Assembly: GCA_016748015.1 (NCBI GenBank)
Contig: JAAOMT010000786.1
Span: forward strand, 764,157 to 828,156
Length of the DNA: 64,000 bases
Origin: Geosiphon pyriformis
Lineage: Eukaryota; Glomeromycota; Glomeromycetes; Archaeosporales; Geosiphonaceae
Direction: 5' to 3'
Part shown: positions 14,594 to 56,130 of the stretch, piece by piece
Layout: each line of letters starts with the position of its first letter
Position numbering within the stretch: the stretch's first letter is position 1
Translations under genes and position numbers: made by a program
Notes under the pieces: model-generated
What the model was told of the DNA's origin: nothing
Seen by the model: only the letters and a program-made list of their open reading frames with translations
Databases searched by the model: none

Positions 14594-16329
14594 TCCCAAC
14601 TTTTTGCTATCAGGATTTCTTCAGCTTTTTCTTCCTGAATAAGAATAGTTACTTTTTTTATTTAATTTACTTTCGTTGATTGTTCCATTTTTATTATAGA
14701 GGATCTAACATCCTTTTGGCAGCTTTCAGGCGGACTTTACGTATAAAAAAATGTGCAATAAGAAATGGAAGTTGTGAATAGCTTGTACAGTGAAATCACT
14801 TTGTACGATATCATTTTGGTAGATAATCTATTTTAGAATATACCTTCATCTGTATTCAATAAATAAAGGGATTAGATGATTTAAGTTGACCAATTTATTA
14901 ATTCTAAAACTTAAATATAATAATAATAATAATGTAAAATTTTTAAACTTAAAACAAATATTTAAATAACTCAAAAATATTATTTAAGATGAAATTGAGA
15001 AATATTGTTGCTTTTTTTCAAGTAAAAAGATTTTGATATTTAAAAATCATATTTTTATTTTTAATGTTTTTAACAAATAATTGTTTATTTGTTAAATAAA
15101 ATTTATAAAAAAATTCGACTAAAAATATTGTATTTAAATTCTAATTAATAATAAAATAATGATTATTTTTGAAATTTTATTAATAATTTAAAATTTGTAA
15201 TATTATATAATATTTATTTGTTTAATATTTATATTACAAATAATAAATAACATATAATTTAAATAAAAAAATTCATTTATTTTTAATAATATTATAAAAT
15301 ATAATATTATAAAATCTTAACACATAATTAATCATTTAAATTTAAGTAAATAAATATTTATTTATTTTTTAAATTTAAACTATTTAGTATTTTTATTTAC
15401 TAAAATAATTTACAAATATTTGTTTAATATAAATATATTTACATATTTAATTTTTATTGTTTTTTTATAAACCATTTTTTGTTATTATTTACATATTATA
15501 CAAATTTTTTAAAATAAATAATAATAAAAAATAGTTTTTTAAAACCATAAATATTTAAAAAATAAGTTTTTTTAATTTTAAAGATTTGGTTCTTATATAA
15601 TTATTTTGGTATTAAAATATATTTTAATATTAAAATAATAATTATTAACTTAAATATATATATTAAAATTAAGTTTATTTAATTTGATTTTTGTAATTAT
15701 TATTAAATAAAAAACAATACATTAAAAATATTATTTATAATAAGAATTTAAATATTAAGTATATTAAAATAAAAGATTATTTTAAAATTATAAACAATAA
15801 TTATATTAATATATTTATAAATAATACTATAATTTAAAGTTTATATTATTTATTAATATTAAAAAAAATGTTTTTTATAAATAATAAAGTAATTTTTAAA
15901 TATTTATTAATAAAAAAACTTGTTTAATTTAATAAGTTTTAATTAAAAACTTAATTGTAAAAATAAATATATTAATAAATTTTTAATAAAAAATTATAAT
16001 ATTACTGATCTTTAAACATATTTCATAAAATATTTTCATAAAAAGTTGTTAATAATTATAAAAAAAACTTTTTAATTTTAAATATTTATATATTTTAATT
16101 TTTTATTTGTTATATAATACTATTATTAATAATTGTATTTATATAATTATTGTTAAAAATTTTGTTTTTAAGATTTAATTTTTTAAATTATTCTTAGTAT
16201 TTAATAATAATATTAAAACTAAATTATATATAATAAATTTTATTTATAATTTTGTTATAAAACACAAAAAAATATACTTTTTGTTTTTTTAATTTTATAA
16301 TTATAACCAAAATAAAGAATAAAAAAGCT
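14594..16329. other. Extremely AT-rich repeat desert, no gene
   Basis: To about 14880 this is the 3' flank of the ankyrin gene with AATAAA-like strings. After that the sequence is almost only A and T, with scattered TTTTTT/ATATAT runs and no conserved ORF. It is probably transposon sequence eroded beyond recognition. Confidence 0.6.
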
Positions 16330-18475
16330 ACAACTAGTATCTTTTGGTATTTAATAAAATTTTATTCAAAAAAGTTTTTTCTGTTGTGAAAGCAGTTAGA
16401 TAAAATGTTTTAGAAGTTTTTTTTTTAATTTATAATAACAAAAAACTATTATTAAAAATTATGTATATATTTTTTTTTTTACTAATCAAAATTTTACTAA
16501 AAAAACACACATGAGTTAGTTTTAATGTTGTCTTTACTCCTTTTAAGAGCCCAAAAATTTTCAATAACAGACTAATTAATAAGTTGGTTTTTTTCACTAT
16601 AATTGCTATTTGGTGCTGCTAACATTATTACTTTAAAAAATACCAAAAATTCAAAAAAATAAAAACAGTTATTTATTTTTATTATTATTATATTAAATTT
16701 TTTTGTGGTTTTAATAAAATTTTGAATAAAATTTCTATTGTATAATCTAGTATAACATCTAAAATAGGCCAAAATTAATCACTAGTTGTATTGTTAAATA
16801 TAGTATCTTTTGGTAAATTATTGTTAGTTTTAAAAGCAAAACAACAGTTTTTTGTTGGATTATCTGTTCTTAGAAATTGGACTGACCAAATAGAAATTGA
16901 AGCATTTTTTTTGTTGGTTTTGCTATTACTAATAGTGTTTAGAAAACTATTTTTAGTTATTAAAGATTTATTAAGTAGATAGTCTTTACTTTAGTGCTTG
17001 ATACAATTTTTAAGATTAAATTGACTTATATTAAGATTGTTTTTTAATTTGTACATGGTTTTTTGAATGTAAAATCAGTATTAAAAAATAATATAAAGTT
17101 TTTTTATATAAAGTTTGCTTCTCAAAAATTTTTAAAAGCTGCTTTTCTAATTAAACTTATAAATTTTATTTGTTTAACCACTTTTAATATTGTCAAATCT
17201 TTAATGATTTTAAATATTGGTTCTTTTTTTGCTATTATTACACTATATAATATGTTTTTAAGTATGTTTATTATTAATATTAAAACAGTATTTAGTAAGT
17301 TTGGTAAAATTACCTATATTATACTAAAATTTGCTGGTATTTAACAATACATTATTGTTTATTTCAAAGAACTAAATACTATAGTATCTGTTTTAAATTA
17401 TTAATTAGTATTAATGAGTAAAAATAATGTTAAAATTTTTTTTGGTAAATTAAAATGAAATTATTTTGTTTTATAATAAATTAAAACCAAGTTAATCAAT
17501 TTTTTTTCTGATTGTATTGTTTTTAAAATTAATAATATAATTTTTTAGATTAGTAATCAGACATGTTTTATTCTTTACTTTTTTAATTTTGGTTATTGTT
17601 TCTGGTTTGTTTTGATTATATTTAGATTTTAAGTTAATTTGAATATTATAGTAATTAAGATTAATATAATAAAAAAGTATTATATTTGATAGAAAACTCT
17701 TAATTATTAATACTGTTTTAAGTATCAAAAAATAAGCCATTTGGCTGTAAACTATAAAGTGTTTTTATCTTTTTTTCTAAGATTTTCAAAGTATTTATAT
17801 CATGTTTTGTAAATGCTAAGTTTTATGCCAAAACTCCTGCTCTTTTGAGTTTTTATCTCTAATAACTTTTGTTTTCTTTTTTGTAATTGTTAATAATTCT
17901 TTGGTTTTTTTATAGCTGACCTTTTTAAAAGCTAATTTGGCCAAATTAACTACATTAGTTAAATTTATTACTGCATTTATTAGTCTTATGTTTATTGTTT
18001 TTAAACAATTTATTAAGAGAAATTTTATTTTAAACAGTGTTTTTAGTTTTAAAATTAATAAAATTTTGATATATATAAAAGTTTTTAACAAAGCTATTAA
18101 TAAGTTAAAGTGAAAAATATTTACATTAAAAATTAAATATAGTTATAATAATATTAATATATCTGGTTCTTATGTGAATTTGTTTATTGTTAATAATAAT
18201 ATGTTTTTAATTTGTTGTTGCTTTAAAAACATAAATTTGTTAATATTAAGACTAATGCTTTTAAAACAGCTAATTAGTTGGTTATATTGGTTTTTAACAA
18301 TATTATTCTGTTTAAAATTGTTTAAAAATGTTTTTTTTGAGTAGATTTTCTTTTAGAGTTTTAATTTAATATAGTTTAAACTGACTTGAATAGCTAATTA
18401 TATGTAAAAAAGATATAAATATTATTTAGTATTAAAATACTTAATTTGTTTCTAATTTCTAAATAGTAATTGAAT
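16330..18475 (+). mobile_element. LINE ORF1-region fragment, heavily AT-eroded
   Basis: Aligns by eye along its length with 42600-44790, for example AGTATCTTTTGGTATTTAAT at 16336 against the ATATTTTTTCTGAGATATCC region at 42622. The open pieces 17063-17344 and 43449-43778 are versions of the same protein (LNxxSFFAxIxLxNMxLSMF in both). This copy has consistently fewer G and C. The encoded type is the ORF1-like nucleic-acid-binding protein of a non-LTR element. No frame is intact. Confidence 0.6.
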
Positions 18476-21164
18476 TATATTCATTAAATATATAATAATA
18501 ATAATAATAAACACAAATTAAATATTTAGTTACTAAATTTCAAGTTTAAAATTAATTATATAAAAAAACTTAATTGTTAATAACAGATTAATTTTAATTA
18601 ATATTTATAATTTTGTTAAACTTAATTTTAAAAATTTAATTAAATAAAATTTTTGTTAAAAAATATTATATTGGTTTTGGTTTTATTGTCTATTTGCAAT
18701 TATTTTTTAAGAAGTTTTATAAATATTATTATCTAAATAAAAAATTAACTAAATATAAAAAAACATAATTAATATATAATAAAATACATAATAATATAAA
18801 ATAACAAATTATAATTAATAATAGCAATATAATATATAAATAACAAAAATTTTAAGTTTTTAAAACCTATTTTATATAATAAAAAAATATATATATAAAT
18901 AGTTTTAATTTTAAAAAAAAATATTTGGTTTTTTTTATATTTAACATATAATCCAATTATTATTAAATACAATAAATCAAATTAAGTAATTTAAAATTAG
19001 ATATATTTTATGTATTTTCTATATATAATTAAATACAAGTTTAGTTCAAACTAAATTATATTAAATTTATAAAAAAAAATCTACTTTAAAAAAATATTTT
19101 ATGCAAAACTACAACCAAAAAAATTATTATTTATAATAATACTACTTAATTATTTAGCAGTTTTATCTAAATTAAACTTAATGCTAATAAATTATTATTT
19201 TTAAAAAATATTAATCTAATATAAACTTTATTATCTAAAAAATTATTATTATATTTTTATATATAATTAATATTAAAGTTATATTTAGTTTTAATTATAT
19301 TTATATTTAAAAAAAGCTTATTTATAGTCTTATATTTTATATTAAATTATATTAAATATATCTTTAAACTCTATATACAAAATAAAAAAATGTTCAAAAA
19401 AGTAATAATTAAAATAATTAATAAACTAATTAACTTAACAATAAACTTAATTAAAATAACCAAATTTAAGATCTGAAATTATAAAAAATTTAATTTAAAT
19501 TTAATTACAAAATTAACAATAAAAACAGCCAAAAAAACAATAAAAAAAACCAAAAAAGCAATAATTTTAATATAAAACTTTATATTAATAAAAAATAAAA
19601 CAACAATAATAAAATTATTAATAGATTTAAACACAATTTTATTAAAAAAAATAAAACATATTATAATTTATAGTTAAATAATCTAAATTCTAATATTTAT
19701 AATAATAATAATATTTAAAATCTTATTAAATATAAATCTTATACAAAATATTGGTTTTTATAATAACAAAATTCAAAATTTTTAAAAACTTAAAAATTAT
19801 AATAACAAAATATTAATAAAAATAAGAATTAAAAATACAAAAAATAAACCAAATATAATTATTAACTTGAAAAATCAAATTATTGATCTTAAAAATTATA
19901 CAACTAAAAAAAAATAAATAATTTGGTCTTAAAAATATATTTTAAGATAATAATTTTTTTTAATTAACCAAAAAAAATTTTAATATTATTATTTTTAATT
20001 AATACAGACCAATAAAAACAACAACAACAATAAAAAAAGTTTTAAAAATAAATAATAATATATTATTACAAATTAACAAATTTTAACTTAACTAAAATAA
20101 TAAAACCAAAAATATTTTTAATATTATTAGAAAATATATTATTATAAAGTGCAATAGCAAATAAAAAAAAAGAAACAAAAACTATTATAAAAGAGTTTAC
20201 AATTTTAAATATGATTAAAAAAAATTTTATTAATAAAAATTTTGGTAATAACAATTAAAAAAACATTAAAAGCAAAATTTATATAAAATAACTTAAATTC
20301 AATAAAACAAAACAACAACTTAAATAAAAAATCAACCAAAACCAATTTAATCTTAAGTATAATACCAAATACAAAATAGAAATTATTTATTCAATAAATT
20401 TTTAATAATTAAAAATTGGTTTTTAAATATTATTAAAAACAATACCAAAAAACAAAAAAAATATTAATTTAGTTTTCATTTAATTAGTTTAATTTTTAAG
20501 ATTAAATAATTCAATAAGTTAATTAATTGAAAACATATTTAAGAACATATCTTGTTTTGCTTTTAAAATTAATAATAATTTGTTAAAAAACATCACTTTT
20601 AATAATATAATTAGTAATTAATTTTGGTTTATTTTAAAAAATATGTTATTATTATTGTTGCTTATATTAAAAAAAAAACTAAATATTATTGTAAAAATTT
20701 TATTCAAAATTTTATCTGAAACTATAAAAAATTTAATATAATAATAGTATATACAAATAACTATTACTGTTTTTTAAAGTTTTTAGTTATTTGCAAAATA
20801 ATAGTAATAAAAAAAAAAAAAAACCAGCTTGTTAATTGGTTTATTATTAAAAACTTTAAGGTTTTTAAATAAAAACAATATAAGAACTTATTCAAGTATA
20901 TTTTTTTAAAAAATTTTTGATTAAAAAAAAATAATCAGCCAAAAAACAAAAAAATGCTTTCAATATTTAAAAAAAATATTGCCAAAATAGTTTATTTAAT
21001 TGTTTTAATAACAAAAAAAATTTTTTTTTAAACCAAATATAATTAACATAATATTTTTGGAATTTTAACAATTTAGATTAATTATTTTTAATTATAATAA
21101 TTAATAAAGTATTGATTTATTTTATTTTATTTATTTTATTTTTTTATTTTTATTTTTATAAAAT
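18476..21164. other. Extremely AT-rich repeat desert, no gene
   Basis: Nearly pure A/T with short (TAATAA)n and A-run stretches. Open frames at 18769-18972 and 20066-20254 are biased only by composition. Nothing codable recognised. Confidence 0.6.
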
Positions 21165-32700: not shown

Positions 32701-33699
32701 ATGGATTCCTGAACTTCCTTGAAAAGAAATGAGCTTGTCTCCTGTATCCAAACGAAAACTCATTGGTGAATTCGAATCTATTTGCGACTCTGTCGTGATG
32801 TCGCCAATATGGGTGTGGACTGCATTTTTGAGTTACCAGTTTTAAGTGTTCTTATATATATATACATATATATATATTTTTCAATGTAGCTTTCTTTGTA
32901 ACATATTATATTTCACAATACGAAAGGCACAAATTTGTGGACACTTTACATTTTTGGCGGTTTATGGAGGAAAATCAACAGGGTCTCCTAGATTTTTACC
33001 GGAGGATTTTTCGAAATTAGAATAATTTTTCAAAGGGATGATGTGAACCTCAACACCACCACCACCACCACCATCACCATTTTCATCAAACTCCCTCATC
33101 CTTATAATTTTTTAGTTTATTTTCTTCCCCTTTTTTTCTGGAGTACTTTAGATTTTCCTAATCATCTCGAGCATGACTTCTTTTGCCTTTTTCTTTTTAT
33201 GTCCTATTTTTCTACTGCTACCATTAATAAATATTACCCATTATACAACCTCCATATAGACTTGTACTTATACATAAATTTTCTACATTTTCATTTTCAT
33301 AATCTTTCACATCACCATCATCACCATCATCATCATCATCATCATCATCATCACATCATTTCAAACCATGTCATTTATCAGAAGTGTATTTGTTCTCGCA
33401 GAAAGAGAACGAAAGAATTGGGTCGACGAGAGGAAGGAGCGAGAAGATGGGAAATAAGCTAAATTAGCAAGTTTTGAATAAGTTTGGAAATCAAAAAATC
33501 CATGAATAAATCCACGTTACAATAATTCAATTTTAATCTGATCCTGAAAAGTTTATGAATCTTTTTCTAAATTCGTGCGGATTCAAACTAATGTCTTTTT
33601 CACAATCCTGATTTGAAATATATCAATACACAAGAATTGCCTCAATTTTTAGTGCATTTTTTAATGAAAAGATTTGCTTAATAATGTCTATCAATAAAA
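32701..33699. other. 3' flank of the Ral gene with (CAC)n and (CAT)n runs
   Basis: (CAC/CAT)n at 33052-33080 and 33309-33357. The 139-codon frame across them (33043-33462) is His/Phe-rich low-complexity sequence and not a credible gene. No other ORF is supported. Confidence 0.55.
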
Positions 33700-34035
33700 A
33701 TGCTAATCAGTTTTCTTCCCACCCCCCTCTTTCCTGAGCTAACTTCTCAAAATGCTGATACCACCATCTCTGGTACCAAGAAAGGTTACCTCTACGCCCT
33801 TGCCTCTAGTCCAAAGCAAAAAGAGGATCTCGAGCGACAAAAACAATTCCTCTCTCGATTTCCGACCTGTGAACTCCTTAGCGATATCGATCATGACTTA
33901 AGACCCTATTGGAACGAATAAGCTGCGGAATGGTCTCGGAAATTGTACTCCTGTCTACTAAAATCGACATCGCCAGTTTTATACCAAGAATTCCCATATC
34001 AGTTTCACAACAGGCTTGGATAAAAGACGCTAATG
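33700..34035 (+). pseudogene. IS607-type serine recombinase (TnpA) remnant
   Basis: Frame 1 gives KKGYLYALASSPKQKEDLER then QKQFLSRFPTCELLSDI, ending in TAA at 33919. This matches the N-terminus of IS607-family serine recombinases (Y-x-R-V-S-S-x-K-Q-x-x-D-L-x-R-Q ... L-x-S-D-I), with the SS dipeptide at 33805-33810 containing the nucleophile. The Arg before it is not retained (ALASS). After a frameshift, frame 0 continues with MVSEIVLLSTKIDIASF (33930 on), matching the next family block (V-K-E-I-V-V-A-H-K-D-R-L-x-R-F). The rest is missing, including any clear N-terminal MerR-type helix-turn-helix. Such enzymes cut and join transposon ends through a Ser-DNA intermediate. The family assignment is from motif recognition. 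Confidence 0.7.
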
Positions 34036-34139
34036 AACACGAAGACAAGAAACTCAAAAAAAGCTTCAATATGGGGCGAGCGCGAGTTCATGCGGACTGT
34101 TGTGTGTCTCGGAATGTTGCTTCGGGTATGCACGGCAAA

Positions 34140-35192
34140 GGGCTCGCGAATATTATTGATGAAACATTGATTTCTAGGGAAGAAGTAATTGAGCGTAATG
34201 CGAATCAACAAGGTCTATCAGTACACTATCTATTTCGATCACGAAAAGATCTACGACAGAAAATGTCAATTTGTGCACAGAATTCTTCGAAATCCACATG
34301 GAACCTTTTCTATTTCACTCATCTCCATAATCCGTCGGTGCTTACTACAAATCTTTATAAGCTTACCACAATTCTGGATAATGTCAAGGGTGCTTTGTTC
34401 TCTTTATTCCGAAAAAAAAAAGAGCCATAATAATAAGTGGCCCGTTCCTCACGAGATAATTTCGGATGGCAAGCTTACCTACTCTCGCAAAGCTAACGTG
34501 TGGAAGTTTGCCTCGGTATACGAGACGCAAAAACAGCTCCGCGAAACTCAAGCGGATGACTCTCTTCATGCGGTCTCCACTGATCCCGGCGTCCGTACAC
34601 CTTTTACATGACAATCCCACAACTCCGGCAGTTGCACACTTTGGACCTTCCGATTATTTCGATATTCCCACATTGATTAAAAGTCTCGGATGTGTAAGCT
34701 TCCCTAATTCCTCCGCCTTAATGATCAGACGTTGTCAAAAGCATTCGCCGAAAATTTTTTCGTGTAATCTTTCTTGTGTTGCGGTTCACCATGTCCGATA
34801 CTTCAAGAGGAGGAATAAAAATGGCATCGAATTTGCGGGTAAAAAATATAACTGATTTCCGGGGAATTTCACTTTTTCGGATGTATAACTTTTTCCCCGC
34901 ATCCGAAAAATTGCCTCATCGAGTCACCCGGCCATTTTATTCTTACATTTTGAGGAGGAAATTATTAACTTATCCTTTTGGGAGATGAGATCGTACAAGT
35001 ACTTGGAAATACGAACTATACATCCAATAGAATGTTCGCCAATCTTGCCTACCCCTTTCATGGGAGAGCATGATAGAGAGATGAAAACGACGCTCGGGGG
35101 ATTTTCCTCCGGGCATTGCTTGATGGGAGCCTTGGTCCTACAGTGTTCATGCGGGATGTATTATATTCCATCCGGCAAAAGAAAAACGATAT
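34140..35192 (+). pseudogene. Fanzor (eukaryotic TnpB-like RNA-guided nuclease) remnant
   Basis: Blocks in changing frames follow the order of a Fanzor/TnpB protein. VHYLFRSRKDLRQKMSI (about 34220-34270, frame 0) is followed by VPHEIISDGKLTYSRKANVW and TDPGVRTPFT (34582-34608, frame 1), the RuvC-I signature holding the first catalytic Asp; the next codon is TGA where Trp fits. Then come HFGPSDYF near 34640, GDEIVQVLGNTNYTS (about 34984-35025), and RDENDARGIFLRALLDG (35077-35130), the RuvC-III block D-R-D-x-N-x-A-R-x-I. Two in-frame stops (TGA TAG at 35071-35076) precede it, and the zinc-ribbon segment between YTS and RDEN is too short, so it is deleted. It lies directly after the recombinase remnant on the same strand, the IS607-Fanzor order. 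Confidence 0.72.
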
Positions 35193-42589: not shown

Positions 42590-44790
42590 AACTAGAGCAA
42601 AAAGTAAAAAAGCTGTATCTAATATTTTTTCTGAGATATCCAATAAAATTTCAACCAGAAAAGTTTTCTCTGTTGTAGAAGCAACAGACAGAACATTTTA
42701 GAAGCCTTTTTTTTACCTAATAATTATAAAAAGCTGTTTTTGGTAGTTATTAAAACAACTTCTTTATCTTTGGCTGGTCTTTTACTAGTCAAAATTCTCT
42801 CAAAGAGACACACTTAGATTAGTTTTAGTGTTGTCTCTACTTCTTCAAAGAGCCCAAAAATTTTTAATAATAGACCAGTTAACAAGCTGGTCTTCTCTTC
42901 CATAACTGCTACACCAGATGCTATTAGCACTTCTTCTTCAAAAAAAAATAATTAAAAAAACCAAAAGTTCAGAAAAGTAAAAGCAGTTGCTTGTTTCTGC
43001 TATTGTTATACTGAACCCCTTTGTGATTTCCAATAAGATCTTAGGTAAGATTTCTATAATATCATCCAGCATATTATTTAAGATAAGCCAAGATCAATCA
43101 CTAAATGTGTTGTCAAATATGGTGTTTTTTGGCAGATTATTACCAGTTTTAGAAGCAAATTAACTATTTCTTATGATGTTACTTGTTTTTGAAAACTGGG
43201 CTGACTAAATAGAAACTGAATTATCTCCTTCTCTGGTTTCTGGTGCTGCCACTAATAATTCTTGAAAAATCATTATTAGTTATCAAAAATTTACTAAGTG
43301 GATGACTTTTATTCTAATGTCTGGTGCTATTTTTAAGATCAAATTGGCTTATATTAAAGCTGTTTTCCAGTTTGTACATGGTTTTCTAAATGTAAAATTA
43401 GTATTAAAGAACAATATAAAGCTCTTTTATATGAAATTTGTTTCTTAAGTGTCTTTGAAAGCTGTATTTTTGGTTAAGCTTACAAGTTTTGTTTGCTTAA
43501 CCACTCTTAAAATTGCCAAGTCTTTGGTGGTTTTTGAGTCCAGTCCCTTTTTTGCTGCTATTATATTGCATAATATGTCTTTAAGTATGTTTGCTGCTAA
43601 TATTAAAACAGTTTTTGGTGTTTTTGATAATATTATTCATATTGTACTAAAGTCTGCTGGTATTTGGCAATATATGATTGTTTATTTTGAAAAGTTGGAC
43701 TTTGCTGTATCTATTTTAGATCATTGGTTAGTTTTGGTGAGCAAGAATAATGTTAGAATTTTTTTTTTAATAAATTAGAATAAGACTATTCTGTCTTGAA
43801 ATAGATTTAAGACCAAACTAGTTAACCTTTCTTCTGGCTGTATTGCTTTTAAAATCAATAATATGATTTCTTAGTTTAGTAATCAGACATGTTTTATTCT
43901 TTGCTTTTCTGATTTTGGTTATTATTTCTGATTGCTTTGGTTATTTTTGGTTCTCAGGTTGATTTAGATGCTGCAGTTTTTAAGACTAGTATGTTAAAAA
44001 AATTCTGTATCTGATAGAAAATTCCTGGAAATTGGTGTTATTTTTAATGTCAAGATTCAGATTATTTGGCTTTGGATTATAAAATGTTTTTGTCTTTTTT
44101 TTTTAAGACTTCCAAAGTGTTTACCTCTTGTATTGTTGATAACAAATTCTATGTTAAAGCTGCTGCTTTTGTGCTTCCTTCAGTTTTTAGTCCTTTAACT
44201 GGTTCAGTTTTTTTATTAATATAGTATCTAATAACTCTATGGTTATTTTTTGGTTAATCTCTTTAGAATTGGAGTTGGCCAAACTTTTTAATCTGGTTAA
44301 TTCTATTGTTAAGCCTGTTGATTCCATGGTAAAAGTGTTTGAACAATTTATTAATAAAAACTTGGTTTTGAATAGTGCTTTTGGTTTTAGGATTAATAAA
44401 GTTTTGGTACACATGGATTTTTTTAGCAAAACTGTTGGTAAGCTGAAACATAAGATTGTTGCTTTGAAACTAAGTATAACTATGCAGATATTAATATGTC
44501 TGGCTTTTATATAAGTTTGTTTTCTATTGACAATAATATGTTTTCTAATTTGATATTACTTTGGGAACATAAATCTGTTGCTGTTAAGTTTGATGCCTTA
44601 AAAACAACTGAGTAGTTGGTTGAATTAGTTAATAATAGTGCTATATTATTTGAAATTGTTTAGAAAATGTCTTCTTTGAATAAGTTTTTTTCCAAAGTAT
44701 TAATGTAGTATACATATAGAAAATACATAAACTATATTTAGTACTAAGACATCTAATTCCTAAATAGTAATTGGGCTATACTTGTTAAAT
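42590..44790 (+). mobile_element. LINE ORF1-region copy, moderately eroded
   Basis: Better-preserved homologue of 16330-18475. Open pieces are 43449-43778 (MSLKAVFLVKLTSFVCLTTL, NIIHIVLKSAGIWQYMIVYF) and 44239-44514 (MVKVFEQFINKNLVLNSAFG). It resembles ORF1 of the LINE at 47.1-49.8 kb in its KSAGIWQ...VYFEKLDFAVS block, an RNA-recognition-like segment. It ends near 44790 in (TAA)n at about 44795-44820, a common LINE 3' feature. CpG dinucleotides are almost absent. Confidence 0.6.
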
Positions 44791-47090
44791 CCTAATAATA
44801 ATAATAATAATAATAAATTATTATTGTTATTATTAATATTAACTGTAATTGTATATTTTTTTATAATAAAAGCCATAATAAATTTTGTTTTTTTATAAAA
44901 AAATACTATTATTAATAATAAAATTTAATAAAATAATTTAACAATTATTTAAATTTTATATAATTATTTAATAAAACTTAAAAAAAGATATTATATATAT
45001 AATTAATATTTTTATTAATATTTAAGTTGTATTTATAATAACAAAAAAACTTTTTTTCTTTAAGTTTTTAGTTTATTTATATAATTATAGATCTTGTTTA
45101 TATATGTTTTTAAAATCATAAATATTTGTTTTTTATATTTTTTGGTCTTTAATAAAAGTTTTTTTTTAATTTTTAAATATACTTATATTATTATTTTTTG
45201 AATGTTTTTAAAATTAATTTTTTTTTTGGAGTTTTTTTATTTGGTTTACATTAAAAATAAGATAATATTATTATTAAATATTTATATAAATTATAAAATA
45301 ATTTTTTTGTAAATTTTATTTACAAAATTGCAAATTTATTAATATATTTATAATCATATATATTATATTAAATTATATTTTTTTACAAAAATCTAAACTA
45401 TAAAAAATTAAACAATTAAGTACAAAACAAATATAAACAAATTTTTAATTATTATTATCACCAATTTTGCTATAATTATTAAAACAGCAAATTGTAAATT
45501 AATTATAATATCTTATTTTTAATATTTTGTTTTTAATATTTTATTTTTATTATTAACTTATTAAATTTGAAAGATATAAATATTTGAATTTAAAAAGCAA
45601 ATTTTTACTTAGTTTTTATTATTATTAGAAGATAACTTTTTTTTTATAAATTTATATGAATATTTATTGTTAAAATAATTAGTTATATATTAATTTATTA
45701 TTATAATATATTTGTTTTTTTAAACTAATTATTAATTTTTTTTAATGTTTAAATAAAATAAAAAATATATATTAATATTTTTTTATAATAAATAAATTTT
45801 TTATTTTTAAAATAATGGTTTAAAATTTTTGTTTTTGTTTTTAAAACTGTAGTAATTATAATAATTGTTAAAAGTCAAACTTATAGTTATTTTGTTGTTC
45901 TTTTTATTTTTACTTGCAATTTTTTTTGCTTAAAATCTTAATATTAAAGATTAAATATTTGTTTTTAGGATTTTTGTAATTATTGGCCAAATTTATAGTT
46001 ATTTTATTATTTACTTTACTATTTTTTAATTTTTTGTTTTTATTTTTTTTGTTTTTATATCTAAAACCAAATTAATTATTAAAAAATTGTTTTTGTAAAT
46101 AAAATATATATTTATAAAACAGCAAATTATTTTTATAGCTTTATTTTTAATTTATAATTATCTATTATAATTGTTTTTATAAATAAAATTAAAAATAATA
46201 TTAAGCAAATTATTTAAGTTTTTATGTCTTAATATTTAATAATAATAAACTTTTAAGCTTGAATAATCTTTTTTATAGTTTTATTAAAAATATTAACAAG
46301 TATTTTTTTTATATTAAATTATATTATTGTAATATAATTTTTTAATAAATTTTAAAAATACTTATAATTTTTGTTTTTTTTGTTTAAAATATAATTTTTT
46401 ATTATTATATGATATACAATTTTATAATAATAAACATAGTATAAAATTAATATTTTTAATATATATAACATATTTAAAATCTTTATTTTTTTTTAATATA
46501 TTATTTTATTGTTATTTTATATTTAAATATACATAAATTTTTAAATTTTTTGTTATTATTTCTACTTTTTGCTTTTTTTAAATATAAAAAAAAAGATTTA
46601 TTTTAGTTTTGTGTTTTTATTGTTTTTTATTGCTTATTTTTTCTTTTTTATTATTAACAATTAAAATTTGTAATAATATTTTCAATTAATTATTGATATA
46701 AAATTAGATATAAAATTATTTTATATATATATTATAATAATTTTTGTATTATTAAAATAGCAATAATAAAGTTAGTATTAGTAAATAATTATAACTTAAA
46801 TATCAAAATAATAAATATAAGTTTTTATTTTTAAGCAATAAAAAATAAAAAAACACATTTTTTAAATTAAGTTACAATATAAATATATTAATAAAGTTTT
46901 ATTTGTAATATTAGTAAAAACAAAAATTTTTAATATTGTTATTGTTAAAAAAATAATAAATTATATAATAATAAATTATAAAATATATAAAAATTTAATA
47001 ATAATAATTAGATTGTATATTTATACAATTATATAATAATATTAATAATTAATTAAAAAAAACTTTTTTTTTGTTGATCTTCTGATTACA
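44791..47090. other. Extremely AT-rich repeat desert, no gene
   Basis: Almost only A/T with T-rich runs on the plus strand. No conserved reading frame in either direction. Confidence 0.6.
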
Positions 47091-50697: not shown

Positions 50698-51428
50698 TTT
50701 GGTGCTCTTTTAAAAATAATATAATAACAATTAAATTAAAGTAGTAATCATATTAAATATAACAACTTTAAAGTACTATCAGTTAATTTACACTCATTAT
50801 AAACAATGATTTAAAATCTAAGATAGAATTACAGCTTTTAAGAAAACATTTTTTCAATATATTAAAAATTGAATCAATAATTATCTCTTTAAAAACTACA
50901 ATATTACAAAAGTTAAGTAAAATTTTTTTAAAAATCTTATTTATTACTCAAACAAAAATCCAAAAAATATTAGTGCTAATAATTATGCTACTTATTTTAA
51001 AAAACTTAATTACAATTTTATTAAGTTTTATAAAAAAAAATATTCTGTTAATTTACAATTTGTTTTTAAATTCGAATCTGAATCTGAAACTAGTAGCAAA
51101 AACAAAAAAAAATATTTAATCAGTTTATACAACTCCTAATATACTAAAGACAACTTTTTAATACTTGTAAATATCTAAACAAAAAATTAGTTCTAAATTA
51201 TCACTTTTTATTACATCTTTTTTAACTTTGTTTGTTTAAACATAAACACTAAATTTATTATTTAATTAATTTTTAAGACCAAAAAATTTTACCAAAAGCC
51301 TAATTTAACAGCCAAAACTAATCTATATTAGCATTAATTTTTTTAATTATTTAACAAAAAACTAAAGTAAAAATTCAGAAACATTAACTTATAAAAAAAC
51401 ACTTCTGAGCCAATTAAAGAAGAAAAAG

Positions 51429-51465
<37 letters not shown>

Positions 51466-51512
51466 AAAAAAATAGAGAAAATACATCAAGGCAATTTGTT
51501 ACATTAGTATTT

Positions 51513-51532
51513 NNNNNNNNNNNNNNNNNNNN
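51513..51532. other. Assembly gap (20 N)
   Basis: Twenty unsequenced bases, with A-runs at about 51430-51463 before it and 51533-51560 after it. Confidence 0.97.
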
Positions 51533-51563
<31 letters not shown>

Positions 51564-54500
51564 GTAAAAAACATATTAGTAATAATTAAAACAAAGAAAT
51601 AACCACTATTTGTATTACAAAAATTTCTGAATTTTCAAAAAAAAACTCTGAAACCAGTTCTCAAAAATGATTTGATAAAGTTACCAAAACCAGAAATATT
51701 ATAGATAAAATATAATCAGAATATTAAAAACAATTTTTTATTTTTTACAAAAAAAACTTAATAATATTTTTTGTTAACTGGTTAGTTTTTAAAACTGTTT
51801 TTTTTTAAACAGTTTATTAGCAACAATACTTTAATTACTTCTCAAAATTATTTTTAAAACATTAAACAAAAACTTGTAAAATCTGTTATAATCTATTTTA
51901 GAAAGTTTAACAAATTTTTCCAAAGAATCAAACAGTTAGAAAACAATAACTATTACCTAAATATCCAATTATTGAATCAATTTGTTATTAAATTAAAAGA
52001 TAAACTTATTAAAAAAGTTTGATTATATACACTTGAAGATTTAACCACTTATAAATTTTTTGTATATCTTAACTTTAATTAAACTATTCATTAAATAATA
52101 TTATTAATTGAATTATAAATTTTTTGTATATTCTATAAAATTAACCAAAGCTTAAAATTTTTTTTTAATATATTTTTTATTATTGAATTTATTACAAAAA
52201 TTAAAAATTGAATCAAAGTATTTTTTAAAAGTAAAAAACTGATTTATATAATAGACAAAAATTCAACAAATTTAAAAACATTTTTAAAAAAAATTTATTA
52301 TAATGTTTTAATAATACTAAACAAATTAATAGTCTTTTTATTTAAAAGTTTTTTAATTATATTAAGTATTTTATTATAATTTATTGTATTTATTATTATT
52401 AAAAAAATATTATTATTAACATAAGCTAAAAACAAATATTAATTATATTACAAATTAGAAATATTGTTCAAAACTGCTTTTTTTTATTCAATTTTTTAAA
52501 ATTATGTCTATTTTTAACTTAATTTTATTAAAATTTAAAACTAGCTTATTTTTTACAACCAAATAATTCAGAATTATTTTATAAAATACTTATTTTAACA
52601 TATTTTTAATAATATAGTCTTTATTAATAACAAATTTAATTTTTCACTTTTTAGTTCTATAAAATTCAATAAATTTAAATATACAATATAATTTTTTTAT
52701 ATTAAATAAAATAAATTTAACTTTATTATTACTAATATTTAAATTTAACAATACTTAAATACTTAAAGTTTTGGTATTATTAAAAAACAATTAACAATTT
52801 ATTAAAAAAATAAGTTTATTATTAGGTTTTAGTTTTAATAATTTAATTATTTTTAAAACCAAAATTTTTAATCTATAAAATCTAAAAAAAAATTTAGTAA
52901 AAACATTATTAAATTTTTAAATCATATTTTAACAAATATTTTATTAAACAAGAAATACACAATTTTCTAAATAATATTTTATATTACATTTAAATTAAAT
53001 ATCTTTTTTAAAGCAAAAAACTTATCTAAATACATTGCAATATTAGTTAGTAAAACATTTTTAAAACATTTTTATTTTAAATTATTAGTATTTTTAAGAT
53101 TAAACTTTTATTTGTTTTTATTAATTTCTCTTTAAAAAAAGTTTAATTATATGTTTAGCAATTTATTCAAACTTATTAAAATAAAAGTAACTTGATAATT
53201 AATGTTAAAAAAATTTTTAATATTCAAAATATTATAACTAATAACTATATTAATAAAATTTATAAAAACATATAAGTAATTAATAGTTTTTTCTGCTTTT
53301 TTTAAGTTTTTTTATGTAATAATTTTAATTATTAAACTTTTTATTAGAAAATTAACCAAATTTAAATCCAAATAGTTTTTAAAATTAACACATTAATAAG
53401 ATTTATTTTTATTAAAATTATTATTTAATATTATAAATAAAAACTTATTTACAGTTTTTATGATTAATAAATTAATTTTATTAGTCTAAACTATATATAT
53501 AACCAAGAAAATACTAATATAAAACCCCAAAATTAAAACAAAAAATTTGGTTTTAAAAAGCAATTTAATTAACAAAAACTAATTAATAATTTTAAAAACC
53601 ATATATATATATTTAATTAAACAATTATTTATAATAATTATAATATTAAAATTAAAATAATTAAAATTTAAACCAAATGTATAAACTTAAATATTATTAA
53701 ATTTATTTACAATTCAAAGCCAAATTTTGTTTTTTGGTTTTGTTTTAATAACTATAAAAATTAAATTGTTTATTTTTTTATATTATTTTATAATATTTTT
53801 TTGTTTTATAAAATTATTTATATCTTTTATATTATATATAATAATTTTTTATATTAAACAAATTATTAAGATAAAAAAAAAATTATACTTAAAGCTAAAA
53901 TAAAATTATTAATTTTATAATAAACTTTAATAAACTTTTTATTTGCAATTTTATCTTAACAAAATTTATTAATACCAAAAAACTAAAAACAATAACAATT
54001 TTATTATTAATAGTTGTATTTAAATCTTTATTGCTATATTTCTAACTTAATTCTGCAATAGTAAGATTATTAATAATTTATATTTAAGATAAAATTAAGA
54101 AATAATTAATATAAATATATTTAATTTTTTTATTAACTTTTTAATTTATTTTATAAAATTAACAAAACTGTATTTTAAATTAATAAATCTTAAATTGATT
54201 TTATTAAACATTAATAAAAAAAGTTTAATTATATAAAAAAAATCAGAATTAAACAAATTACCAAAAATTTCATAAAAAAAAACTTTTAACAATTAAAATC
54301 CAAGTTTTATTACCAAAAAAAACTGGTTAAAAGATTAAAGTGAATTTTTTAATATAAATAGCAGTCAATTTACTTTTATTTAAATTTAAAAAAGATTTTT
54401 TTATATGTTTACTTAATATATATTAACTATTAAATCACAATTATAAAATATATAATTGAATTTACTATAAGCTAAACATATTGCTAAAGTTAAATAAAAT

Positions 54501-56130
54501 TAATAAAAAACAATACTTTTTATAATTAAAACTGTAATTAAAGCTTTTAACAAATATTTTTCAGATTTAAAACAAATAATTACATATTATATATAATATA
54601 ATTAAAATTAATAATACAAGTTTTTTTATTAATTAAACCAATATAATTTTACAGATTATAAGTATCTATGTTTATTAGCAAAATATAAAGCAAAATTTTA
54701 TAAAAGTTTCTAAATTTTATAATAATTTGTTATTATTAGTTTTTATTATTTAAACTGTATTTTTCAATAAAAATTAATTATTTTAAAACAAAAAAATTAA
54801 TTTGATCTAATTTAACAAATTTTATTACAGCTTTTTGTTATAGTTTTATTAATTATATCAAATTCAAATAGTATAATATATACAGTTTTATAGATGTTTT
54901 TACATAAATTTTTTTTAAAATTATAGTTTAACTTAAATAAATATTTAATTTTTTTAGATTAATGTTTATTACAATATTTCTATTATTAACTAAATTTACT
55001 GTTTTTAACATACTAAATTCTAAAATAAAAGTTACATAAATAATATCATTAAATTTTGAAAAGATAAAAACTTTTTTTATAACAATTTTTTTTTAATTAT
55101 TAATTAATGTTTAAAGTAAATAATTTTCAAATAAAAATATTTACTAAAATTTTAAAAAAAGATAAAAGCAGTAAAAATTTTTTTAAGTTATTAATAATAT
55201 AAAAAAAATTACTTTTTTTTAGAGATTTTTCTAGTAATTATTTAGTAACTATTTTAGACTTTTTAAAAATTATAAACATGTTATTATTATTTAGATTTTC
55301 ATTATTATTAAAATAAATACTAATTTTTTTAACAAAATTATTTTTTATTATGTTTATATTATCTGATTTAATTATGTTATTAACTTTAAATCTACTTAGT
55401 TTATCTATTATAAAAAGCTTTTATTAAGTAAAAATGCCAAATCTATTTTTTAAGTCTTTTAAATTACTATTTTTGTATTTTTTTCTAGAAGTTAAAGTCA
55501 TATCAACTTTGGTAAAGCTTGATTTTTTCACTGTTTTTTTATACTAAATTCACTAACATAATTAATAATTTTGTATTCAAATAAAAATAGTTTAAAAGTA
55601 TTTAATTAAATAATTAATATATAATAAAAACCAAAAAAAAACTTTTCTTAAAAAATATGCTCTTTAAAAAGTTTAAAATAGACTAGAAAAAAAAGTTTAT
55701 TTAATTAAAACTTAATAATACATAACAAAAATAATATATATTAAGAATAATTTATATATTTTTTATATGTAGTTAATTATTTTAACTTATATATTTTTAT
55801 TTATTTATTTAATAAATGTGGTGTAACCACTACTTAATGTAATTAAAACTATTCTAAATAATAGAAATATTGTAATAAACAATTTGTTTTTATCTTATTT
55901 AAATATTTATTTAACAATTTTTATTATAAACATAACTATTTATCTATACTTTAATAATTTTTTATTATATTTTAAAGCAGAACTTTGTATCTTGCATAAA
56001 ATTACCAATTTATTAATCTTAAAAAAAATAATTATTAATGAATTCCATAAGAGCATTTAAGAAATATTCATGAATTGATTAGAGAAAACTTGGTATAATT
56101 TATAAAGCAAATATACATAGAGATTTATTA
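51533..56130. other. AT-rich repeat desert, unassigned transposon remains
   Basis: Strongly AT-rich with no intact frame. On the minus strand 55320-55480 reads like a decayed protein (KNRFGIFT, IIDKLSRFKVNNIIKSDNI) that I cannot name. Sequence at 55805-55840 resembles 23785-23815 and may be the 3' end of a minus-strand LINE. From 56030 the composition moves towards that of the next gene. Confidence 0.5.

Follow-up and report, generated by a model that had tools for sequence, protein, structure and literature searches.

Remnants of an IS607-type serine recombinase and a Fanzor2 protein between shared ends in the genome of Geosiphon pyriformis

We analysed a 64,000 nt stretch of the Geosiphon pyriformis genome (assembly GCA_016748015.1, contig JAAOMT010000786.1, positions 764,157-828,156 of the forward strand; hereafter the window), in which a relic of a TnpA serine recombinase is followed by a relic of a Fanzor protein within a single pair of ends (Table 1). 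An earlier note on this DNA had placed the two relics at 33700-35192, an extent which the mapped ends correct to 33664-35174. The upstream neighbour of the element is a gene with a Ras match, and runs of CAC/CAT triplets lie just upstream at 33050-33360. A neighbouring homoaconitase exon shares 73% identity with its best named hit, from the glomeromycotan Dentiscutata erythropus, and 78% with another protein.

Table 1. Features of the relic element, in window positions
Feature	Position	Strand	Basis and remarks
Whole relic element	33664..35174	+	ATGAAAAG... left, ...CCATCCG right; sharp similarity limits between copies
TnpA serine-recombinase relic	33727..33888	+	P0250 residues 45-106, frame 1; tblastn E 2.5e-17; NCBIfam transpos_IS607 E 3.4e-4
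TnpA relic, continued	33897..33950	+	P0250 residues 117-134, frame 3, past a frame change; tblastn
Fanzor N-terminal and middle part, to RuvC-I DPG (34582-34590), with frame changes	34042..34608	+	tblastn with P0140, P0162, P0250
Inverted Fanzor middle, with alternative catalytic Glu and zinc finger	34609..35069	-	P0162 residues 209-373; edges accurate to within a few bases
Fanzor C-terminal end, RuvC-III motif RDENDARGIFLRALLDG (35077-35127), normal orientation	35077..35133	+	tblastn
Right end, hairpin of sister copies missing	35134..35174	+	fold z +0.21

Four TnpA relatives aligned by tblastn to the whole 64-kb window gave E-values from 2.5e-17 to 3.4e-14 (best E on the reversed window, 0.22), and four Fanzor relatives gave E-values down to 2.2e-32 (best E on the reversed window, 3.1e-4). 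Both families had thus been named correctly in kind, and the quoted motifs, frame changes and stops are all present in the window sequence. The IS607-type catalytic domain of TnpA survives as a relic only, with motif SSPKQKEDLERQ at 33805-33840 and LKTLLERISCGMVSEIVL, which includes EIVL, at 33897-33950; IS607 similarity ends at ...GMVSEIVL (33950), the LSTKIDIASF tail previously attributed to the recombinase is unmatched, and the remainder of TnpA is deleted, visible as a gap against the other copies of the element in the genome (sister copies). The Fanzor alignments occupy 34149-34346, 34384-34632 and 35077-35133 on the plus strand and run from 35067 to 34607 on the minus strand, with FRSRKDLRQ at 34233-34259, DPGVRTPFT at 34582-34608 and the codon of the alternative catalytic Glu at 34700-34702 of the minus strand, and the first Cys of the zinc finger reads Phe. 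A DPG together with a Glu six residues ahead of the first zinc-finger CxxC occurs without exception in seven relatives and can still be read in the window; excerpts of earlier work already describe this fingerprint and the presence of Fanzor2 in IS607 elements (PMC3627910, PMC10711439). The closest named relatives used, the Fanzor2-like proteins P0140 of Diversispora epigaea and P0162 of Cetraspora pellucida, can be aligned along the relic in the window and along its sister copies, and are open reading frames in public protein sets, whereas the window relic is broken.

Profile and structure searches were far less productive than these alignments, with transpos_IS607 in the first TnpA frame being the sole NCBIfam match among the window frames, at 20.2 bits against a cut-off of 110. 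Pfam-A gave no match for seven single frames of the element and a chance match only for three further minus-strand frames, and solved-structure searches with two window frames returned chance matches or none. A frame-aware comparison, which the earlier note had proposed, bears out both blocks with full-length relatives, and among profiles yields this one sub-cut-off TnpA match. Since no single-frame profile gives a match above its cut-off, we rely for proof on the full-length relatives and the sister copies. Two sister frames (L035 and L037) match the TnpB/Cas12f zinc-finger family, and a third (L038) gave chance matches only in both profile and structure searches. The best solved-structure match to L035, a sister frame and not the window, was the distant TnpB-like protein L79 (PDB 9b0l; E 3.9e-11, at the zinc-finger end), which we take to be a Fanzor2-type protein of a mimivirus. 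The predicted chytrid protein P0125 (Borealophlyctis nickersoniae, 790 aa) combines HMG-box, FHA and Fanzor/TnpB domains, which reflects either a true gene fusion or a faulty gene model.

Similarity between copies begins sharply at ATGAAAAGATTTGC... (window 33664) and ends at ...CAATCCATCCG (35174), with unlike flanks on either side, so the shared ends sought in the earlier note could be mapped across copies. Genome-wide, the right-end 17-mer occurs 29 times with at most one mismatch (12 exact) and the left-end 27-mer 19 times with at most three, with no occurrence of either control. The dinucleotide preceding the left end was CG in 9 of the 19 genome-wide occurrences (TG 3, AG 3, TA 2, CA 1, CC 1), a share inflated by the CG in the search pattern, and in 10 copies compared directly it was CG in 4, TG in 3, AG in 1, TA in 1 (the window) and CA in 1. 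As CG likewise closes the right end, it is the likely two-base core of exchange in this family; for bacterial IS607, part of one account reports a GG core (PMC6188088). At C317:1061373-1062131, left-end and right-end matches lie only ~0.76 kb apart, possibly as a short deletion derivative, and beside the left end of one sister copy (L005, at 715) a second TnpA relic (L005:392-739, minus strand) stands head to head with the element.

The order of the relics and the ends around them are common to the window and its sister copies. One pair of ends encloses both relics in each case, and the two are thus parts of one former element, as the earlier note had supposed. It is very probable that 33664-35174 is a dead IS607-type transposon in which the remains of TnpA precede those of a Fanzor2. 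A TnpB-family gene lies downstream of tnpA, as in IS607, both here and in the sisters, and the Fanzor shares its ends with an IS607 TnpA and not with another transposase, as Fanzor2 does. In the window taken by itself, the frame change and the deletion that separate the relics would fit two unrelated remnants lying side by side by chance, but sister copies keep both in the same order and within the same ends, which contradicts chance, and the predicted proteins P0250 and P0162 each join recombinase and Fanzor parts in one chain; we give this reading a practically negligible probability. Capture of a Fanzor1 or Fanzor2 by another kind of eukaryotic transposon (Helitron, Mariner or Mutator-like) has precedents, according to excerpts of PMC3627910 and PMC10711439, yet it is extremely improbable here, given the IS607-type TnpA within the same ends; moreover, over their last bases the ends do not form an inverted repeat, and the flanks examined carry no evident duplication.

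The IS607-Fanzor2 element in the window has been rearranged internally. The relics had been described as lying on the same strand, which holds for TnpA and the outer parts of the Fanzor but overlooks an inversion of ~460 bp inside the latter (34609-35069): along the window, P0162 residues 144-214 read forward, 209-373 backward and 377-395 forward. Orientation could be assigned in 34 copies, of which 31 are in normal order (counted by hand: 20 of 22 fetched sisters plus 11 more from a table in which 40 of 175 candidates were scored) and three carry internal inversions with differing breakpoints, namely the window copy, one on C262 (L003, L051) with a larger flipped block of about 34537-35125 in window terms, and one on C322 near 365.8 kb (L050) in which a piece of ~130 bp is flipped among deletions. 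At the left junction of the window copy TTTTACATG runs into ACAATCCC, the reversed end of the second site, and the right junction shows small differences from sister copies; the L003 breakpoint involves a few bases of possible microhomology, read by eye. A joining of two CATG sites was rejected as an account of the window inversion, since CATG is absent from the second site in the sisters. That three of 34 orientable copies are inverted, all within the Fanzor part, might suggest a switch or a side reaction of the element's own recombinase or nuclease, but the three sets of breakpoints differ, no common recombination site was found there, the large majority of copies keep the normal order, and inverted copies are no less decayed than others, all of which leaves this origin very unlikely. 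An artefact of assembly or library, at which the few odd bases at the junction could hint, is very unlikely, as independent inversions occur at two other loci and, in our own reading, the segment edges bear no long inverted repeats that might mislead an assembler. Because breakpoints differ among the three copies, the inversions are most simply explained as two DNA breaks rejoined in reverse.

The element belongs to a multi-copy family. Genome-wide profile searches gave at least 81 matches for PF07282 (E up to 0.01) and at least three for PF00239, and protein searches at least 154 for P0242 and at least 108 for P0162, all being lower bounds on matches, of which one copy can yield several. Intact copies, for which the earlier note had suggested a search, were absent from the 59 loci fetched, where the longest stop-free aligned Fanzor stretch was 169 residues against 385-562 in the relatives (four queries). 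The ends of two contigs (C310 end, L032 and L040; C397 start, L033 and L041) carry the same element and gene neighbourhood, probably as an unmerged overlap or a haplotype, and at C342:178420-178698 and C342:180549-180827 a pair of TnpA pieces 2.1 kb apart share the same match statistics, perhaps through a later tandem duplication.

The window element has a GC content of 0.424 and a CpG observed/expected ratio of 1.11, and 12 copies (the window included, some with approximate limits) range over 0.39-0.43 and 0.81-1.11, whereas window positions 15000-21000 are very AT-rich (GC 0.124, CpG observed/expected 0.04). The statement that the element is not AT-drifted thus agrees with its composition, and the contrast suggests a CpG-driven decay of some repeats from which the Fanzor copies were spared. 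Further AT-rich blocks lie at 44000-47000 and 51000-56000 (GC about 0.09-0.16). The window copy has no function of its own, having been destroyed by frame changes, by deletions that removed much of TnpA and the right-end hairpin, and by the inversion. The earlier suggestion that it was lost by another route or recently therefore stands as to the route, which was not CpG decay; a recent loss fits poorly with 22 sister copies that share 70-81% identity with the window over 34022-34611 and carry many indels.

The earlier note had also proposed a search for a structured RNA at the 3' end, and a candidate right-end hairpin is found in sister copies but is absent from the window copy. The right end of sister copy L015 folds with a z of -4.35. 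Across 11 right ends the mean z is -2.05, with six of them reaching -2 or lower, against a mean of -0.11 for 44 internal stretches, one of which reaches -2 or lower; the values for four left ends were -2.07, 0.22, 0.88 and 0.91. With the tool's own limits, eight sister right ends gave z-scores of -3.30, -1.28, -2.56, -1.24, -0.92, 0.17, -0.44 and -0.97, the fold being weak in six, and the hairpin was recovered by repeat finding in two sisters (L015 and L005) and not in a third (L012). Rfam searches returned no match for the window and one sub-threshold chance match for four loci. Taken together, the folds point to an ancestral right-end hairpin of the family, which is eroding in many copies and which the window copy has lost. 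It sits where the scaffold of a guide RNA would be expected and may be regarded as a putative scaffold.

The most interesting feature of the element is a subfamily that has lost part of its recombinase. In many TnpA relatives the N-terminus is formed by a MerR-like HTH domain (PF00376). In six measured copies (window, L005, L009, L013, L015, L016) only 66-92 nt separate the left end from TnpA residue 43-47, which is too short and therefore leaves no room for this domain, and residues 1-42, with the N-terminal winged helix/HTH expected of the recombinase, are missing from all six. Among the matches listed genome-wide, 19 begin at TnpA residue 43-47 (one sequence being included twice, from two contig ends) and nine at residue 35 or earlier; of the latter, two loci were fetched, one holding HTH residues 1-35 (L057) and the other beginning at residue 24 (L058). 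Remnants of TnpA with the HTH thus sit at other loci of the genome. A bacterial TnpA deprived of residues 1-50 loses DNA binding, as reported in PMC6188088. The HTH-less copies are a deletion derivative of the IS607 family and not an autonomous member, and because they are without the DNA-binding domain of TnpA, they were probably moved by full-length TnpA acting in trans.

By analogy with the families concerned, a living element would be cut out by its TnpA serine recombinase and inserted through exchange at two core bases, which in this family are probably CG. The Fanzor would take its guide from an RNA that starts in the right end and extends into flanking DNA, and by cleaving empty sites that match this guide it would help the element to be retained. 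Full-length TnpA acting in trans would have moved the HTH-less copies, and the window copy would then have been broken by frame changes, deletions and the inversion. We put forward tentatively, as possible and somewhat doubtful, that the subfamily multiplied after the loss of the recombinase HTH with nuclease and right-end RNA retained, such that the Fanzor, helped by a trans recombinase, kept the element spreading rather than its own recombinase.

Elements of this kind are known. According to excerpts of Bao and Jurka 2013 (PMC3627910) and Yoon et al. 2023 (PMC10711439), eukaryotic IS607-Fanzor2 elements share with the Geosiphon family an IS607-type recombinase beside a Fanzor with DPG and alternative Glu, a right-end region of structured RNA, putative in Geosiphon, and a lack of evident terminal inverted repeats. 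Measured against those excerpts, the Geosiphon family differs in being decayed, in a tendency to CG and not GG at its ends and in a TnpA without HTH, and the window copy in being inverted inside. Fanzor2 is broadly distributed in fungi, according to part of Saito et al. 2023 (PMC10432273), and in the titles and abstract openings of the open-licence literature we found no description of IS607-Fanzor elements of Glomeromycota; one review (PMC12451028) mentions both Fanzor and Rhizophagus. New here are the inversion, the HTH-less copies, the sharp shared ends with CG often beside the left one, and the folding of several right ends into a hairpin. The analysis thereby documents a large extinct population of IS607-Fanzor2 elements in a glomeromycotan fungus and provides their mapped ends, their likely core and a hairpin at the right end. 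The domain-less subfamily offers a test case for what a Fanzor is worth to an element that should be unable to bind its ends through a recombinase of its own.
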